A stretch of DNA of 64,000 nucleotides from positions 372,001-436,000 of the forward strand of contig MPMM01000002.1 in assembly GCA_002238505.1 (NCBI GenBank). Reading direction: 5' to 3'. A program made the translations under genes and the position numbers. Of the stretch, positions 32,243 through 63,557 are shown in pieces (position 1 is the stretch's first letter; each line of letters opens with the position of its first letter). The notes below the pieces were generated by a model. The model saw only the letters and a list, made by a program, of their open reading frames with translations, was not told the DNA's origin and did no database searches. The DNA comes from SAR202 cluster bacterium bin22 (GTDB lineage: Bacteria; Chloroflexota; Dehalococcoidia; Lucifugimonadales; UBA3495).

Positions 32243-33424
32243 ATGACCACGGCAACTGCAAACTACGATCTGTTGCTTAAGGGAGGCACTTTGCTTGACC
32301 CTGGTCAGGGCATCCACGACCGGTGCGATATTGCCTTCCAGAATGGCCTGGTCGCCGAGGTGGCGGAAAACATCGCTCCTGAACAGGCTGCCAACGTTGT
32401 GGACATTGCAGGCAAAATGGTGACGCCTGGTCTAATAGACCTCCATGGTCACTTCTACCACGGTGGAACCGGCAGCGCGGTTCACGCCGACCAGAATTGC
32501 CTGTCTTCGGGGGTTACCACCGGCGTTGATGCCGGGAGTTCCGGGTTCCTGAACCTGGGTGCCATGAGGGACTACGTTTTTCCGGCCCACCGTACCCGCC
32601 TGCTGGCATTCCTTCATATTGGAGCAGTGGGGCTGGCGGCCAACCGGGTGCTGGGCGGCGGACTTCAGGATCTGCGCATTATTGATGTGGACCAGACGGC
32701 CGATGCGGTCAAGGAAAATCCCGGTTTTCTCTTTGGCATCAAAGTGCGCATGGAACTAAATGCTGTGTCCCACTGGGACGCGCCGGAGGCCATGCGACTC
32801 GCCCGGGCAGCCGCAGACCAGTCGGGCGGCAAGTTGATGGTACACGTAAGCGGTACCCCCATTCCACTACCTCAGATTCTGGATTTTATGGGGCCCGGTG
32901 ACATAGTCACCCACGCCTTTAACGGCAATCACGAAGGCATTCTCGACCGGCAGGACCGAATTCGGCCAGAGGTAAGGGAGGCCTCCGAGCGAGGCATCAT
33001 CATGGACCTGGGCCATGCCGGTGTCCACTGTGACGTACCGGTTGCTCAGGCCGCAATCCAGCAGGGACTGCCTCCGGACACCCTCAGCACGGACATCCAC
33101 TTGCCGCCGCCCGGTCGTAGAGTCTATTTGATGAACGATTTGATCAGTAAGTTCCACGCCATGGGAATGTCCCTTGAGGACGCCGTTTCGGCCAGCACTA
33201 TTCGGCCCGCCCAGGTGCTGGGTGTGGATGATAATCTAGGATCGCTGGCGCCTGGATTGTCCGGAGACGCGGCTGTTTATGATCTTCGCGAAGGTCGGTT
33301 TGTCTGGCACGACATGGCACGCAACAAGGTTGAAGGCAAGGTCAGGCTGGACACCTTTCTCACCGTACGAAATGGCGCCGTAGCCTGGCGTGAAGGCAAG
33401 CTGACAGAGATGGGACCTTGCTGA
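32243..33424 (+). CDS. Amidohydrolase/dihydroorotase-like metal hydrolase
   Basis: 393-residue TIM-barrel amidohydrolase with the composite start and end of the family (LLLKGGTLLDPGQGIHDRCDIAFQNG; DAAVYDLREGRFVWHD). Metal ligands are HGH in GLIDLHGHFYHGG, a carboxylated Lys candidate in FGIKVRM, His in LMVHVSG and His in VTHAFNG, and the Asp in LSTDIHLPPPG. This resembles the D-glucosaminate/deacetylase-like amidohydrolases and dihydroorotase relatives; the substrate is unknown. AGGAGG precedes the ATG. The stop overlaps the DUF3179 gene start by 7 bp, so the two are coupled. It ends at an ordinary UGA. Confidence 0.85.
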   Translation: MTTATANYDLLLKGGTLLDPGQGIHDRCDIAFQNGLVAEVAENIAPEQAANVVDIAGKMVTPGLIDLHGHFYHGGTGSAVHADQNCLSSGVTTGVDAGSSGFLNLGAMRDYVFPAHRTRLLAFLHIGAVGLAANRVLGGGLQDLRIIDVDQTADAVKENPGFLFGIKVRMELNAVSHWDAPEAMRLARAAADQSGGKLMVHVSGTPIPLPQILDFMGPGDIVTHAFNGNHEGILDRQDRIRPEVREASERGIIMDLGHAGVHCDVPVAQAAIQQGLPPDTLSTDIHLPPPGRRVYLMNDLISKFHAMGMSLEDAVSASTIRPAQVLGVDDNLGSLAPGLSGDAAVYDLREGRFVWHDMARNKVEGKVRLDTFLTVRNGAVAWREGKLTEMGPC

Positions 33425-35625
33425 TCACTGGCCGCTGGGGGACTGCCACATTATTAGCCGCATTGATTGCGCTGATGGCGGTCGCGGTGGCGTGCAGCCA
33501 GCAGGAACCGGGGATCAATGCCGGAGCGCCCACGTCGTCTCCTGCTTCAACTGCCGGTCCGGCGGACACCAGCAGCGTTGGGGCGGGAACGGATAGCGCC
33601 ACCCCTTCGGCCAGGTCCTCCGGCTCGGCTGCAATTGCCATTGCAGAGAAAGCCGCTGCGACGGTACAGGAGACTGTTGCGCCACCGGACTCCACTACCT
33701 CTGTCCCAGGAAAGGTAGTAACTACTGTCCCCGAAAAAGTAGAAATAACTCACGTTACTCCCGTTAAGTCGCCATCCTCGACCGAAGAGGCGTTGAAGGA
33801 ACTATTCCCCGAAGACACCACCCTTATTCAACTCATCGACCTTTTGGATGAACCGGAATCGTACTGCGTTGATGTTAGTGGATTCGGGTCCAGTCTGGCT
33901 ACGGACCGTCCCCTGCAGGCCCACACGTGCAAGCCTGGCGCCGACGATGAACTGTTCCTGTTCAACCGGCCCGCCGAAGGACAAATTTCCATGCCCGCCT
34001 ATGATTTGTGCATGGAAGCGGAAGGCGAGTCGGTATATGTCCGCTCCTGCACCAATGCCGCTGCGCAGCGATTCGAAGCAGGGGCAGACGGCACGCTGCG
34101 AACCGGAGATGGAGTGTTGTGCCTGTCAGCGGCCCCCGGCGATGGGGAACCTGCTGGGGGGCAGTCCCATCTGCGCCGGGATTTGGTCTTGGTTGACTGT
34201 ACCGTAGGTCAGCGGCACCTGGCGCGCTGGAAAATGCCAGGCAACGATCCCAGCGCATTGCCGGCCGCCTCAACCCAGCTTATGTACGATGCCCTGGATT
34301 CGGCCCTGGGCGGTGATCCGTGGGACATCGTCAGGATTGGCGACTCGGGCAATCCCGCATATATTCCCGTATTGATGGAGATGATCAAGTTCCCCTGGTG
34401 GCATATCGATCGAGAGATAGAACTGGCCCTGTTCGAGTCCCTGGACAGGATAGTGGCAAAGAACCCGGGCCTTTCTGACGCGGAGTCGATCGCCCAGGTG
34501 AACGAGTGGTCCCGCTGGGTCGTGTGGCTCGGACTTCACCCCGAGATATGGCCTCCCCCGGGATTCGCCGGTTGGAAGGGTAGGTTGTTTGCCGAGTTGG
34601 TGGACCCCAATATGGGGGCTTTCCTCTACGATGGTATGCGGTCGAACATTCGCATAGAAGAGATCGTCTGGGGCGGCGTGGAGAAGGATGGAATTCCTGA
34701 CTTGACCTACGCGCCGGTAATCGACGGGGCTGATGCCGACTATCTTGACCCTGCTGACCGCGTATTCGGCGTTTCCTTTAATGGAGAGCATCGGGCCTAC
34801 CCTCACCGCATCGTTAATGCCCACGAGATGGCTAACGATGTAGTAGGAGGTGTGCCCTTCGCCCTGACCTATTGAACTCTCTGCGGAGCTGGAATCGTGT
34901 ATTCCACTAACCTGGACGGCGAAACGATAGAGTTCGGCACTTCCGGCATGCTTTACCGAAGCAACAAACTGATGTACGACCGCAAGACCCATACCCTGTG
35001 GAACCAGTTTACCGGTGTGCCGGCGGCGGGGCCGCTGGTCGGCACCAATATCCGGCTGGAGTTGCTGCCGGTGGTCACTACTACTTGGGCGGAATGGCTG
35101 AAGGCGCACCCGGACACGACGGTACTAGACCTGGAAACCGGAATTTACCCTGCCTTCTTGTATGAATCGGAATGGGACGACAGGTCCATATACTTCGGGT
35201 ATCGGACAAGTCCCCGGACCATGTTCCCCGTGTGGCGACAGAGCGATGCCCTCGTCACCAAGGGCCAGGTAATTGGCCTGAGTATCAATGGCGAAACCAA
35301 GGCCTACCCTCTTGAAAACTTGCGGAAGAACACCGTAGTCAACGACGAATTGGGCGGGGAAGCCCTGGTTGTTGTAACCACCGGTCACCTGGGGAGCCGC
35401 GCCTACCAGCGAGGCGAGGAGTCCTTCAGTGTGGCCGAGGGTGCAGCGCAAGCAGGCAGCGTTATTGCGGACAACTCCGGTCAATTGTGGCGCGTGGAAG
35501 AGGATGCCCTGGTAAGGGAGGACGATTCATCGTTCAGCCTGCCCCGCATACCCACCCATAACGCCTACTGGTTTGGCTGGTATTCCTTCTATCCCGAAAC
35601 CCAGGTTTACAAAGGGGAAGGCTGA
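33418..35625 (+). CDS. DUF3179 lipoprotein with in-frame UGA, candidate selenoprotein
   Basis: One frame interrupted by a single UGA at 34873-34875, codon 486 of 735, read here as selenocysteine. A TTG start gives a lipoprotein signal (LLAALIALMAVAVAC). Three repeats with paired Cys at about residues 148-273 (YCVDV..HTC, LCMEA..RSC, LCLSA..VDC) look like a ricin-type beta-trefoil. The C-terminal ~300 residues are DUF3179. Both sides of the UGA match that family (RAYPHRIVNAHEM before; FGTSGMLYRSNKLMYDR after), and the UGA sits where homologs have the first Cys of CxxC (here U-T-L-C489). A 6-bp stem follows. A nonsense mutation or sequencing error is the alternative, but the remaining 249 codons are intact. 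Confidence 0.8.
34873..34906 (+). promoter_or_regulatory. Recoded UGA with candidate bacterial SECIS element
   Basis: UGA at 34873-34875; a stem of TGGAAT (34890-34895) with ATTCCA (34901-34906), 6 bp, and a loop CGTGT (34896-34900). The loop begins 20 nt after the UGA and its second base is G. These values agree with the bacterial SECIS consensus as I recall it (stem of at least 4 bp, G in the first two loop bases, loop about 16-37 nt from UGA). The stem is only moderately stable. Confidence 0.6.
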
Positions 35626-35710
35626 ACAACCGGAACTTTCAGGGGTGGAGCCAGATATGGCCTGCTTCCGACCGGTTATTCTCAATCTAACGGTCAACAA
35701 AGAAATTGAG

Positions 35711-35742
35711 GGCCCGGGGCGTAAGTCCCGGGCCACGTTTTT
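35711..35742 (+). terminator. Rho-independent terminator after the DUF3179 gene
   Basis: GGCCCGGG (35711-35718) pairs with CCCGGGCC (35727-35734); after three bases comes TTTTT (35738-35742). It lies 86 bp beyond the stop of the full read-through frame at 35625, which supports the longer gene as the end of the transcript. Confidence 0.8.
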
Positions 35743-58672: not shown

Positions 58673-58714
58673 TAGCCACAAGTCGGATGGAATAGACGAA
58701 AGGAGGTCAGGAGT

Positions 58715-59164
58715 ATGGCAGAACTAGCCCTTGCATATCGGGTCAGAAGCTATAGTACGGGGACCCCCGGGCGCGCCATTTGTAATACCCGAAACCACCA
58801 CTGGGTGGCCGACGGTTCTGGCGGAGAGGAAGTTGGCGCCGGCGAACTGTTCCTGTCTGGCATCACTGCCTGCGCGGTGAACATGGTTGAGCGCATTGCC
58901 ACCGGCGAGGAAATTCCTCTCAACTGGATGGATGTCAGCATTGAAGCCTTCCGAGACCCCGACCGCGCTGGCATCGCCGACGAAGGCGCTGTGTCGCTCT
59001 ATGACGACATTAAGGTCCACTTCCAGATGTGGGGGTTGGATGACGATCAGGGGCAGTACCTGGTAGATCAGTGGAAACGCCGTTGACCCCTTTACGGTTC
59101 GGTCGCCGTGGCGACCCCGACTACCAGCGTCTCGGCTGAGGTGTTCGCTGAAGCCCACCATTAG
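58715..59164 (+). CDS. OsmC-family peroxidase with in-frame UGA, candidate selenoprotein
   Basis: 149 codons if UGA at 59084-59086 (codon 124) is read as selenocysteine; a conventional call would stop there at 123 residues. OsmC-type thiol peroxidases use two Cys; the first is C53 in SGITACAVNM, and the family ends with a second Cys in a context like R-C-P-(I/L)-Y-G. Here the frame reads QWKRR, UGA, then PLYGSVAVATPT and on to a UAG at 59162-59164, so the UGA holds the second Cys position. A 6-bp stem-loop starts 15 nt after the UGA. I recall Sec-containing OsmC-like proteins from marine metagenomes. An AAGGAGG site precedes the ATG. Confidence 0.85.
59084..59116 (+). promoter_or_regulatory. 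Recoded UGA with candidate bacterial SECIS element
   Basis: UGA at 59084-59086; stem GGTCGC (59101-59106) with GCGACC (59111-59116), a perfect 6-bp GC-rich stem; loop CGTG (59107-59110), with G at position 2. The loop begins 20 nt after the UGA, the same spacing as in the DUF3179 gene. It meets the usual bacterial SECIS conditions. Confidence 0.68.
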
Positions 59165-59211
59165 CAGCCTCTTTCATAACTGCAGCGAAACGCTAATAGC
59201 TAAGAGTAGCA

Positions 59212-59246
59212 AATCGGTGATGCAGGCACTGCATCGCCGATTTTTT
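59212..59246 (+). terminator. Rho-independent terminator of the OsmC gene
   Basis: A 14-bp stem with one G-U pair (59212-59225 with 59229-59242), a 3-nt loop GCA and a run of TTTTTT. It stands 48 bp beyond the UAG of the extended frame and about 126 bp beyond the UGA. Confidence 0.85.
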
Positions 59247-59592: not shown

Positions 59593-60651
59593 GTGTTCGA
59601 TGTATGGACCCTGAGACTCATTGGCGCGGGAGGGCTTGGCGTTTTGGGGTGGCGCCTGGGGCCCTATGTTCCAGACCTGCCAACTGACAGTAAGCAGATA
59701 ATCCCCTGGGGCATAGTACTGGCCATTGTGGGTATCCCGGTTGGAGCTTTTGTCACGCCCTATTTGTTTCTCCGCCCCTGGCGCAAGGTAGTCGCCTATA
59801 TCAATTCCGTACCCGGCAGTACCCTTCTATCTTCGGCATTCGGCGCGCTGATTGGACTTGTTTTTGCCGCGCTGATTTCAATCCCCTTTTACAGCATTAA
59901 TGGCTGGATGGCCTGGGGCATTCCCATAATCGTGAGCCTTACCCTGGGTTCCTTCGGCCTGTTGCTGGGCGGCCTGCGAGGCAGGGATGTTCAGGCCGTT
60001 TTCCCCTCCCTGGAACAAACAGCCCATACTAACGGCGTAGCCGAACAGGGACGCAACGGCAAGATACTGGTGGATACCAGCGTAATTATCGATGGCCGAA
60101 TTGCCGACCTTACTGGTACCGGATTCCTGGAGGGGACACTGGTTGTCCCACGCTTTATCCTTGACGAGCTTCGTCACATAGCCGATTCCAGCGACCCCCT
60201 GCGCCGCAATCGCGGACGAAGAGGGCTGGAGGTTCTGGGTCGCTTGAGGAGGGATGACAGCATCACGCTGGACATCCTGGATGTGGGTATTTCCAACGGC
60301 GACGAAGTAGATTCGATGCTGGTCCAGATGGCCCGCACCATGAAGTGCCCCATCCTGACCACGGACTATAACCTGAATCGGGTAGCGGAATTCCAGGGGG
60401 TACAGGTCCTCAACGTCAATGAACTGGCCAATGCCCTGAAATCCATAGTCCTGCCCGGCGAGGAAATGCGGGTCAATATCGTGCAGGAAGGCAAGGAACT
60501 TGGGCAGGGGGTAGCCTACCTGGATGACGGCACCATGGTGGTGGTCGAGGGTGGCAAGCGGTACATCAACGCCTTCCATGACGTGACCGTAACCCGAGTG
60601 CTGCAGACCGCAGCCGGGCGGATCATCTTTGCCCAGTCCAAGAACAACTAA
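59593..60651 (+). CDS. PIN-TRAM domain membrane protein (YacL-like)
   Basis: 352 residues: four N-terminal membrane helices (about 10-130), a PIN nuclease-type domain starting ILVDTSVIIDGRIADL (first Asp), RFILDELRHIADS and the late ILTTDYNLNRVAEFQGV, and a C-terminal TRAM domain (MRVNIVQEGKELGQGVAYLDDGTMVVVEGG). In Firmicutes and other phyla yacL precedes ispD-ispF; the same order here supports the identification. GTG start eight bases after AAGGAG. It may cleave RNA at the membrane; the true substrate is not known. Confidence 0.92.
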   Translation: MFDVWTLRLIGAGGLGVLGWRLGPYVPDLPTDSKQIIPWGIVLAIVGIPVGAFVTPYLFLRPWRKVVAYINSVPGSTLLSSAFGALIGLVFAALISIPFYSINGWMAWGIPIIVSLTLGSFGLLLGGLRGRDVQAVFPSLEQTAHTNGVAEQGRNGKILVDTSVIIDGRIADLTGTGFLEGTLVVPRFILDELRHIADSSDPLRRNRGRRGLEVLGRLRRDDSITLDILDVGISNGDEVDSMLVQMARTMKCPILTTDYNLNRVAEFQGVQVLNVNELANALKSIVLPGEEMRVNIVQEGKELGQGVAYLDDGTMVVVEGGKRYINAFHDVTVTRVLQTAAGRIIFAQSKNN

Positions 60652-60686
60652 CCTGCAGGACTAGAACCGATATCTGTAAGGGCGCG

Positions 60687-60788
60687 GTGAAGACGTTGAG
60701 TGACCTGGTTGCTCTTCTGGCCTCCGCGCCTTTGGTTTTTGTGCCCTTGGTATTTGTGGAAGAGATCTTCAAGGGACCGGCGGCTTGA
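60687..60788 (+). CDS. Possible small hydrophobic protein before ispD
   Basis: A 33-codon frame beginning GTG after AAGGG and ending TGA, which overlaps the TTG start of ispD by 3 bases (TTGA). It would encode one hydrophobic helix (LVALLASAPLVFVPLVFVEEIF). The overlap and ribosome-like site would allow coupling to ispD. It might equally be a leader or a chance frame; no family likeness. Confidence 0.3.
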   Translation: MKTLSDLVALLASAPLVFVPLVFVEEIFKGPAA

Positions 60789-61480
60789 GTTCAGAAGCAA
60801 CAGTAGGGGTGGTGATAGTTGCCGCTGGCAGCAGTACCCGCATGGAGGGGGTGGACAAGACCTTCGCCCCCCTGCTGGGCCGTCCCCTCATTACGCACAC
60901 ACTGGACTCTTTCGAAGAATGGCCGGTCATCTCCCAGGTGACGCTGGTGCTTTCCGCAGATTCCGTTGAAGCAGGGAGATCGGTAGTCCAGGAGCATGCG
61001 TACCGGAAAATCTCCCGCGTGGTTGCCGGTGGGGCACGCCGGCAGGACTCGGTAAAGGCGGGACTCGACGCACTAAAACCCTGTCGCTGGGTCATGGTCC
61101 ACGACGGCGCGCGCCCTGGCGTGGACATACCGCTGTTGGAACGGGCCCTGGCGGCAGCCTATAGTTCACCCCACGGCGCGGCCATCGCCGGTGTCCCGGT
61201 CAAGGACACTATAAAGACTGTGGACGCTTCTGGCCGGATCACTGGCACGCCACCCCGTGAATCCCTGTGGGCCGCCCAGACTCCCCAGATATTCGCTTAC
61301 GACGTGCTCTGTCGGGCCCACGCCCAATTTCAGGGTGAGGCCACCGACGATGCCATGATGGTGGAATCTCTCGGCCACCACGTAACTGTATTCCCCGGTT
61401 CTTACGAGAACCTTAAGGTAACCACGCCCGAGGATCTGGTGGTGATGGAAGCCATACTACAGGCGCGGGCATCAGGCTGA
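60785..61480 (+). CDS. ispD: 2-C-methyl-D-erythritol 4-phosphate cytidylyltransferase
   Basis: 231 residues of the MEP isoprenoid pathway enzyme that makes CDP-ME. VVIVAAGSSTRMEGVDKTFAPLLGRPLI gives the CTP-binding motif, with GGARRQDSVKAGL, VHDGARPGV and AGVPVKDTIK, TPQIF and DDAMMVE all in place. The start is TTG at 60785; no ATG precedes the nucleotide-binding motif. ispF follows 103 bp downstream. Confidence 0.95.
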   Translation: MSSEATVGVVIVAAGSSTRMEGVDKTFAPLLGRPLITHTLDSFEEWPVISQVTLVLSADSVEAGRSVVQEHAYRKISRVVAGGARRQDSVKAGLDALKPCRWVMVHDGARPGVDIPLLERALAAAYSSPHGAAIAGVPVKDTIKTVDASGRITGTPPRESLWAAQTPQIFAYDVLCRAHAQFQGEATDDAMMVESLGHHVTVFPGSYENLKVTTPEDLVVMEAILQARASG

Positions 61481-61583
61481 TACGGCAATTACCGCAGACC
61501 AGGGCAGGAAATAATGAGCATTACCTCTTCATCGCGTACATCCATGATTAGATTCCATAGTTAAGTAGCCAGGTATCCCGACA

Positions 61584-62075
61584 ATGCTCCCCGACATCCG
61601 CACCGGAATTGGCTTTGACTCTCACGCCCTGGCGCCCTGGCGACGCCTGGTGCTGGGAGGAGTTGCAGTTCCCCACGACCTCGGCCTGGTCGGCCACAGC
61701 GATGGAGACGCCCTGACTCATGCGATTATGGATGCCCTTTTGGGCGCCGCCGCACTGGGAGACAAGGGTCAACACTTTCCGTCTTCCGATGAAAAGTACC
61801 GCGATATTTCCAGCCTGCTATTATTGGAACAAGTGCGGAAACAGATAGGCGCTGCTGGTTGGCGCATAGCTAACGTAGATGCTACAATGTTGGCTCAGAG
61901 GCCCCGTTTGGGGCCTTTCATTCCGGAAATGAGGAACCTTATAGCAGATTCCCTGGAGACCCAGCCGGACCGAATCAGCATCAAGGTCACCACCACTGAT
62001 TACTTGGGTTTTACGGGCCGTGAAGAAGGCATCGCCGCTGTGGCGGTGGCCACCATCTTCCGACCACTCGAATAA
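61584..62075 (+). CDS. ispF: 2-C-methyl-D-erythritol 2,4-cyclodiphosphate synthase
   Basis: 163 residues, normal size. Zinc ligands are D12 and H14 in GIGFDSHAL, plus H46 in ALTHAIMDALLGAAALGDKGQHF. VGHSDGDAL, NVDATMLAQRPRL and KVTTTDYLGFTGREEGIAAVAVA are family motifs. It acts after IspD and IspE in the MEP pathway; the ispD-ispF order is standard, but no ispE is in the window. Confidence 0.97.
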   Translation: MLPDIRTGIGFDSHALAPWRRLVLGGVAVPHDLGLVGHSDGDALTHAIMDALLGAAALGDKGQHFPSSDEKYRDISSLLLLEQVRKQIGAAGWRIANVDATMLAQRPRLGPFIPEMRNLIADSLETQPDRISIKVTTTDYLGFTGREEGIAAVAVATIFRPLE

Positions 62076-62162
62076 TTTTCCTTTACCCCCTTCGGAATGA
62101 CGCGCTTATGGGCTTCTTCCCAGGGGGATTTGCAAGGGTGAGAAGGGACTCACGGCAAGGCT

Positions 62163-63557
62163 ATGCGGCTGTATAACACCCTGACGGGCGAAGAGAAGGA
62201 GTTTGTCCCGGCCGACGGTAACACCGTAAGAATGTATGTCTGCGGTGTGACACCCTATTCTTCCACCCACGTTGGACACGCCCTCAGCTACGTGGTCTTC
62301 GACACCCTCCGCCGCTACCTGGAATACCAGGGCTACCAGGTCAGGCACATTCAAAACTTCACCGACGTGGACGACAAGATCATCCAGCGTGCCCAGGAAG
62401 CAGGCATCAGCGAGGAAGATCTTACCGCCCAGTACATCGACGACTTCTTCCGCACGATGGATGCCCTGAACATCCGCCGCGCCGACGTGTATCCCCGGGC
62501 CACCCAGGAAATCGAACCTATCCTGGACACCATCCAGAGCCTGGTAGATAAGGGATTTGCCTATCCCGCCAATGGCGACGTCTATTTCCGCGTCAACCGC
62601 AAGGAAGACTACGGCAAACTCAGCCACCGCACCCTTGATGGCATGATCGCCGGCGCACGGATCCAGGTGGACGAGGACAAGGAACATCCCATGGACTTCG
62701 TCCTGTGGAAGGGCGCCAAGCCAGGCGAACCCTCCTGGGAAAGCCCCTGGGGCCCGGGACGCCCGGGCTGGCATATTGAATGTACCGCCATGTCCCTGCG
62801 CTACCTGGACTATCCGCTGGACATACACGGGGGCGGTCAGGACCTCATCTTTCCCCACCATGAGAATGAAATCGCCCAAAGCGAGGCTCATACCGGCATA
62901 GCCCCATTTGCCAATCATTGGGTTCACAATGGCCTGCTGCAACTGGGCGAAGACAAGATGAGCAAGTCCCTGGGGAACCTGGTTTCGGTGGAGGAAGCGC
63001 TGGAGCGTAACAGCGCCGACGCCCTTCGCCTCTATTTCCTCAGCTCTCACTACCGCAGCCCCCTGCAGTACAGTGACGACGGCTCGGCGGCCATGGAACG
63101 CAGCATGGACCGATTCCATCACGCGTTGCGCCCCTCCGAAGCTGATGTGAATGTTTCGGGCGACGCCGGTTCAATGGACCCAGCGCCCTACCGTGAACGA
63201 TTCATCGGCGCCATGGAGGATGACCTGAACACCCCGCAGGCCATTGCGGCCCTCTTTGACCTGGCTCGCGAGATTAACCGTGAGCGGGACAGCGGGCGTT
63301 CCACAACGGCGGCCCAGGCGACCCTGCGGGAACTGGGCGGCGTGCTGGGGCTTACCTTCGAGGAATCGTCTGCGGGAAGCGACGAGCTGGCGGCAAAGCC
63401 ATTCATCGACTTGCTGGTAAACACCCGCACCGAGCTTCGCCAGGCTCGCCAGTTTGCCTTGGCCGACCGGATCCGTGATGAACTGGCGGCACAGGGGGTG
63501 GTTCTGGAGGACTCAGCCCAGGGTACGGTGTGGCGGTATCAAAGGGGCGCCTGGTAG
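62163..63557 (+). CDS. cysS: Cysteinyl-tRNA synthetase
   Basis: 464 residues, class I. The zinc Cys and HIGH equivalent lie in [31 protein letters not shown] (HVGH); [25 protein letters not shown] and [20 protein letters not shown] are typical, and KMSKS is intact in [10 protein letters not shown] (about 264-268). The C-terminal DALR domain and a Cys-specific region follow. It follows ispF as in many bacteria. It stops before a hairpin terminator. Confidence 0.97.

Follow-up and report, generated by a model that had tools for sequence, protein, structure and literature searches.

A candidate OsmC-like selenoprotein with selenocysteine at the second redox position

Within the window, by which we mean the whole 64,000-nucleotide stretch of DNA analysed here, lies an OsmC-like frame that meets a UGA and continues beyond it. 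Is this UGA a true stop, or is it read as an amino acid, and in that case as which one and with what role? We consider it very probable that the gene (58715..59164, + strand) encodes a 149-residue selenoprotein of the OsmC/YhfA fold, whose UGA would be decoded through a SECIS hairpin and whose Cys53 and Sec124 would undergo redox cycling. Going only by the names of the nearest records, the host may be marine or sponge-associated.

The frame and its in-frame UGA

The frame starts with an ATG at 58715, and a Shine-Dalgarno AGGAGG (58701..58706, + strand), read directly in the sequence, lies 8 nt 5' of it. The UGA (59084..59086, + strand) is codon 124, and 25 further codons lead to a UAG at 59162-59164, giving 149 residues when the UGA is read; these coordinates, already given in a preliminary description of the DNA, were reproduced. 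The gene is assigned by its orthologues and by a Pfam OsmC match (PF02566) that spans the UGA, covers residues 39-136 and scores 37.5 bits (cut-off 27.5). In the sequence alignment to Ohr, Cys53 (codon TGC, 58871..58873, + strand) corresponds to the first, peroxidatic Cys and residue 124 to the second, resolving Cys (VCPY).

Relatives were collected from sampled genomes, most of them draft or metagenome assemblies. Eleven came from a scan of GTDB genomes, ten of them with UGA at the same codon (L017-L022, L024-L027) and one with UGC (L023). Class- and phylum-wide searches added several Alphaproteobacteria and showed the family in 24 of the 301 Chloroflexota genomes sampled, while viral contigs and plasmids yielded no relatives of the gene. 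The working set comprises 41 genes: 36 have UGA at codon 124 (the window gene and 35 further ones from Chloroflexota and Alphaproteobacteria), and five have a Cys codon, UGC or UGU, at the identical position. The preliminary description had allowed for a Cys codon hidden in the reads. The assemblies instead give UGA at the same codon in the ten close relatives and in further genomes, and since it recurs in so many separate assemblies it is not a sequencing error.

Conservation downstream of the UGA, proposed earlier as a check, is indeed seen. Between the window gene and L017 the 25 codons of the tail show 10 synonymous differences and not one non-synonymous, and the tail is therefore under selection at the protein level.

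If the UGA were a true stop, the gene would be a degraded or truncated OsmC ending at residue 123. In favour of this, UGA serves as a normal stop in the window, and a standard ORF call ends at it, just as had been predicted for conventional annotation. However, the same codon is UGA in 36 genes of two phyla, the tail is intact and protein-like, five relatives carry Cys at the site, and the SECIS hairpin described below is kept only where the UGA is present. Truncation is in our judgement scarcely credible.

The genome (G000) has what is needed to insert selenocysteine: SelB (348 bits) and SelA (542 bits), both full-length, SelD (386 bits) and a tRNA-Sec with anticodon UCA. A lack of this machinery had been named as a point that would speak against a selenoprotein. 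Further, SelB is above the cut-off in 29 of the 30 other genomes that bear the family.

The UGA could also be read in another way, by near-cognate suppression or by a genome-wide recoding to Trp or Gly, and further genes with in-frame UGA do exist in this genome (SelD, a DUF3179 protein and a second OsmC, of the NF041052 type). However, Sec sites of all these kinds are already known, and tRNA-Sec, SelA, SelB and SelD are all encoded here. Relatives that lack the UGA have Cys in its place, never Trp or Gly, and the hairpin is kept by the UGA genes only. We give such readings almost no weight.

Two of these genes deserve a description of their own. The SelD gene (L013, G000:C57:40142-41065) has an in-frame UGA in the context SHCAGUAAKI and looks like a Sec-containing SelD. 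In the window, a gene at 33418-35718 (+ strand) encodes a DUF3179-domain protein with an in-frame UGA at 34873-34875 (ALTYUTLCG); DUF3179 is among the families listed as containing Sec, with the motif UxxC/T (PMC13188914). In the N-terminal part of the protein, a match to a ricin-type beta-trefoil lectin domain lies barely above the cut-off. The OsmC-like gene had been called the second candidate selenoprotein of the window, which fits the presence of this protein, probably the other one that was meant.

The tree of the family requires at least four changes between Sec and Cys. The host genomes of the Cys versions (L143, L146, L148, L023 and L037) keep SelB, in G725 as a fragment only; the exchange is therefore not tied to loss of the Sec system. 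In the same tree, for which no root was inferred, the genes of Alphaproteobacteria group together with support inside the diversity of Chloroflexota, and this suggests that gene and SECIS may have moved together by lateral transfer.

Neighbouring genes are shared with close Chloroflexota only, namely the upstream gene on the opposite strand and the region 59593-63557 downstream, and they differ in Alphaproteobacteria. Across both groups, the comparison of neighbourhoods gave no conserved neighbours and no hint at substrate or function. A scan for sigma-70 promoters and terminators found nothing. Inspection by eye shows an inverted repeat of 15 bp around a 3-nt loop (AAATCGGTGATGCAG-GCA-CTGCATCGCCGATTT), followed by TTT, just 3' of the gene at 59211-59243; the terminator scan gave no hit for it. 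An antisense ORF at 58724-59161 was set aside as a shadow of the coding strand.

The hairpin after the UGA

A hairpin, GGUCGC-CGUG-GCGACC (59101..59116, + strand), follows the UGA. In all 36 UGA genes it begins exactly 14 nt 3' of the UGA and has a 6-bp stem and an N-G-U-N loop of 4 nt. All six stem pairs are formed in each of these genes, against three to four of six in each of the five Cys genes (Fisher p 1.3e-6, a value to be read with the non-independence of the sequences in mind). A G stands in the first two loop positions in 36/36 UGA genes and is missing in four of the five Cys genes. All five Cys genes thus appear to have lost the hairpin.

In the SECIS of E. coli fdhF the hairpin also stands directly after the UGA and has a GGUC-type loop, in which bases 1 and 4 are complementary with GU between them, and the stem carries a bulged U. 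The hairpin described here shares the placement, the complementarity of loop bases 1 and 4 and the GU between them, but its stem is without the bulged U and its loop can also be CGUG or AGUU. Bacterial SECIS elements are described as having a loop of 3-9 nt with a G in its first two positions, a stem of 4-16 bp, 16-37 nt from UGA to loop and an energy of at most -7.5 kcal/mol (PMC13188914). The present hairpin, with a 4-nt loop, 20 nt from UGA to loop and energies between -8.8 and -13.3 kcal/mol, agrees with all of these rules.

Within the alignment of the 36 UGA genes, three pairs covary, with 22 compensated cells, and the score was reached by 0 of 500 shuffles; it is 0.305, while slid controls give at most 0.047. 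Mapped on the tree, the states of the three pairs require a minimum of 3, 4 and 6 changes. One of the pairs joins loop positions 1 and 4, which occur as C-G, G-C and A-U. These two positions are third codon positions of the adjacent Ala131 and Val132, and their perfect complementarity is therefore not derived from the protein. Further, conservation at fourfold-degenerate sites is 0.76 in the stem, compared with 0.42 before and 0.35 after it.

It should be noted that the 57 nt after the UGA, folded alone, are unremarkable compared with shuffles (z -0.72), so it is comparison, rather than energy, that makes the case for the hairpin. When single UGA genes are recoded synonymously, the P values are 0.03-0.06 each, which are weak on their own because the codons of V-A-V-A favour such a hairpin. 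A search of Rfam over the SECIS, at the gathering level and with E up to 10, gave no match.

The hairpin is encoded by the peptide V-A-V-A-T, present in 35 of the 36 Sec proteins and in 0 of the five Cys proteins. Since no Cys version has it, we infer that the peptide is preserved for the sake of the RNA; the hairpin appears to impose it on the protein.

The comparative data are consistent with a SelB that, carrying Sec-tRNA(UCA), would bind the hairpin at 59101-59116 and so let the UGA at 59084-59086 be decoded as Sec. The preliminary claim that the UGA replaces the second redox Cys of OsmC is borne out by the Ohr alignment, the conserved UGA, the UGC or UGU of five relatives, the covarying SECIS and the full Sec machinery.

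Relation to other OsmC proteins

The AlphaFold2 model, a monomer, has an OsmC fold with pLDDT 81, and residues 27-37 fall below 50. The top matches in a structure search are OsmC-family entries with Z of 9-12; S-adenosylmethionine synthases also appear (Z ~9) and were taken as shared topology. The closely matching 1ml8, which we take to be YhfA of E. coli, aligns with Z 11.3, rmsd 1.6 and 23% identity over 95 residues, and has Cys where the window protein has Sec.

With the thiol peroxidases Ohr of Xylella (4xx2) and OsmC of E. coli (1nye) the window protein shares the fold and two aligned redox positions, where these proteins have CP at the second. It differs from them by Sec in place of the resolving Cys and by Gly at the Glu of Ohr, and identity in the structural alignments is only ~11-21%. 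In the sequence alignment the catalytic Glu of Ohr (PEQ) falls on Gly43, with an acidic residue, Glu44, one position later. This one feature sets the protein outside the Ohr subfamily, and its two-residue redox pair is retained.

Both redox positions that define the OsmC superfamily are occupied: Cys53 is invariant (41/41) and residue 124 is Sec or Cys. Invariant or nearly so in the 41 genes are Arg20, Glu44, Phe46, Cys53, Ala62, residue 124 and Pro125. Arg20 (58772..58774, + strand), a candidate catalytic Arg, is the same in 41/41, and in the monomer model it lies in an N-terminal part of mixed confidence. Another cysteine, Cys23 (58781-58783, context ICN), is conserved among the Chloroflexota and Alphaproteobacteria that make up the clade of the window gene, and the deeper branches lack it; it might act as a third redox residue specific to this clade.

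A single Sec-containing OsmC-like family, with the motif UxxT, is recorded in surveys (PMC1088965, PMC2398784, PMC9312934, PMC13188914), those of the Sargasso Sea and GOS among them (PMC1088965, PMC2398784), and NCBIfam NF041052 (OsmC_like_Se) fits this family. The statement in the preliminary description that Sec-containing OsmC proteins had been reported from metagenomes is thus right as far as it goes, but those proteins have Sec at the first Cys and belong to a different family.

The two families are alike in having an OsmC fold and one Sec, in being bacterial and in occurring in Chloroflexota. However, in NF041052 Sec takes the place of the first Cys (AFULLTQ) and the second is kept, whereas the window family keeps the first and has Sec at the second (R-U-P-L-Y). 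Members of NF041052 in this class read A-F-U-L-L-T or L-F-U-E-M-T; in the window protein the UxxT motif is absent, the first site being Cys53 (CAVN) and the second Sec (UPLY). Sec at the second, resolving-position Cys, together with the invariant first Cys, argues that the window gene represents a separate Sec-OsmC subfamily, as judged from sequence comparison. A description of such a subfamily was not found in the literature searched, a search that left most subscription journals outside.

Could the window protein nevertheless be simply a member of NF041052? Both are OsmC-fold selenoproteins of Chloroflexota, and a tree in which the two are joined as one clade gives p-AU 0.30, so a common origin is neither shown nor rejected. 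However, the window protein scores 19.8 bits against NF041052, far from the curated cut-off of 95, its Sec is at the other Cys, and the two families form separate clades with support of 99/98 (window clade) and 100/99, in a tree that leaves out the row at a contig edge (L068). Further, BLASTP between the two OsmC copies of this genome gave nothing significant. Membership in NF041052 is very unlikely.

The second copy (L117, G000:C39:96011-96427) is a distant Sec-OsmC of the NF041052 type, with LFUEMTQ and Sec at the first Cys. Other OsmC genes also carry UGA at the first Cys. Four of them (L100, L101, L102 and L103), with the context G-[TS]-U-T-x-x-T, are below the NF041052 cut-off and are perhaps a third Sec-OsmC group; one further relative (L099, G027:C96; VGULSV) has a long branch.

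Possible chemistry and meaning

Ohr uses its first Cys to attack the peroxide and its second to resolve, after which the enzyme is reduced by lipoylated proteins (PMC5962072). By analogy, Cys53 and Sec124 are likely to form a two-residue redox pair. The folded protein, presumably a dimer, would hold them at the two Ohr/OsmC redox-pair positions, and they would cycle between selenol/thiol and selenenylsulfide while a peroxide or another oxidised substrate is reduced. The protein is most likely a thiol/selenol peroxidase or reductase on a YhfA/OsmC fold.

Two schemes for this pair are almost evenly balanced. Either Sec124 attacks, with the roles swapped, or Cys53 attacks and Sec124 speeds resolution and re-reduction. 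The second is favoured because Arg20 and Cys53 are invariant. The first is favoured because the Glu of Ohr is missing and because Sec is usually placed at the attacking position. A broader version of the first we hold at somewhat less than an even chance: a widespread OsmC subfamily, as yet without a name, whose Sec would attack from the "resolving" site and whose classical peroxidatic Cys would resolve, and which would have arisen separately from the Sec-first OsmC proteins.

The peroxidase reading, and only that one, is rivalled by a non-peroxidase OsmC relative with Sec124 as nucleophile: a YhfA-like thiol carrier, or a persulfide or protein-disulfide reductase. It is supported by the Z and rmsd of the match to 1ml8 and by the Glu of Ohr not being in place here. 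Moreover, YhfA proteins, for which no activity is known, have neither of the Ohr residues Arg and Glu (PMC8945050). However, Arg20, Cys53 and the acidic residue 44 vary little or not at all, which fits an activated Cys too. We regard the non-peroxidase reading as a serious, if slightly less favoured, possibility.

Returning to the selenoprotein as a whole, the gene would represent a second, distinct Sec-OsmC subfamily, one that standard annotation truncates before its redox residue. The conserved V-A-V-A-T, seemingly owed to an overlapping RNA element, is a warning when conservation near a UGA is read as protein function. Finally, one genome would have OsmC proteins bearing Sec at either redox position, and with both positions available in one fold, what Sec contributes at the attacking site, as against the resolving one, becomes directly testable.
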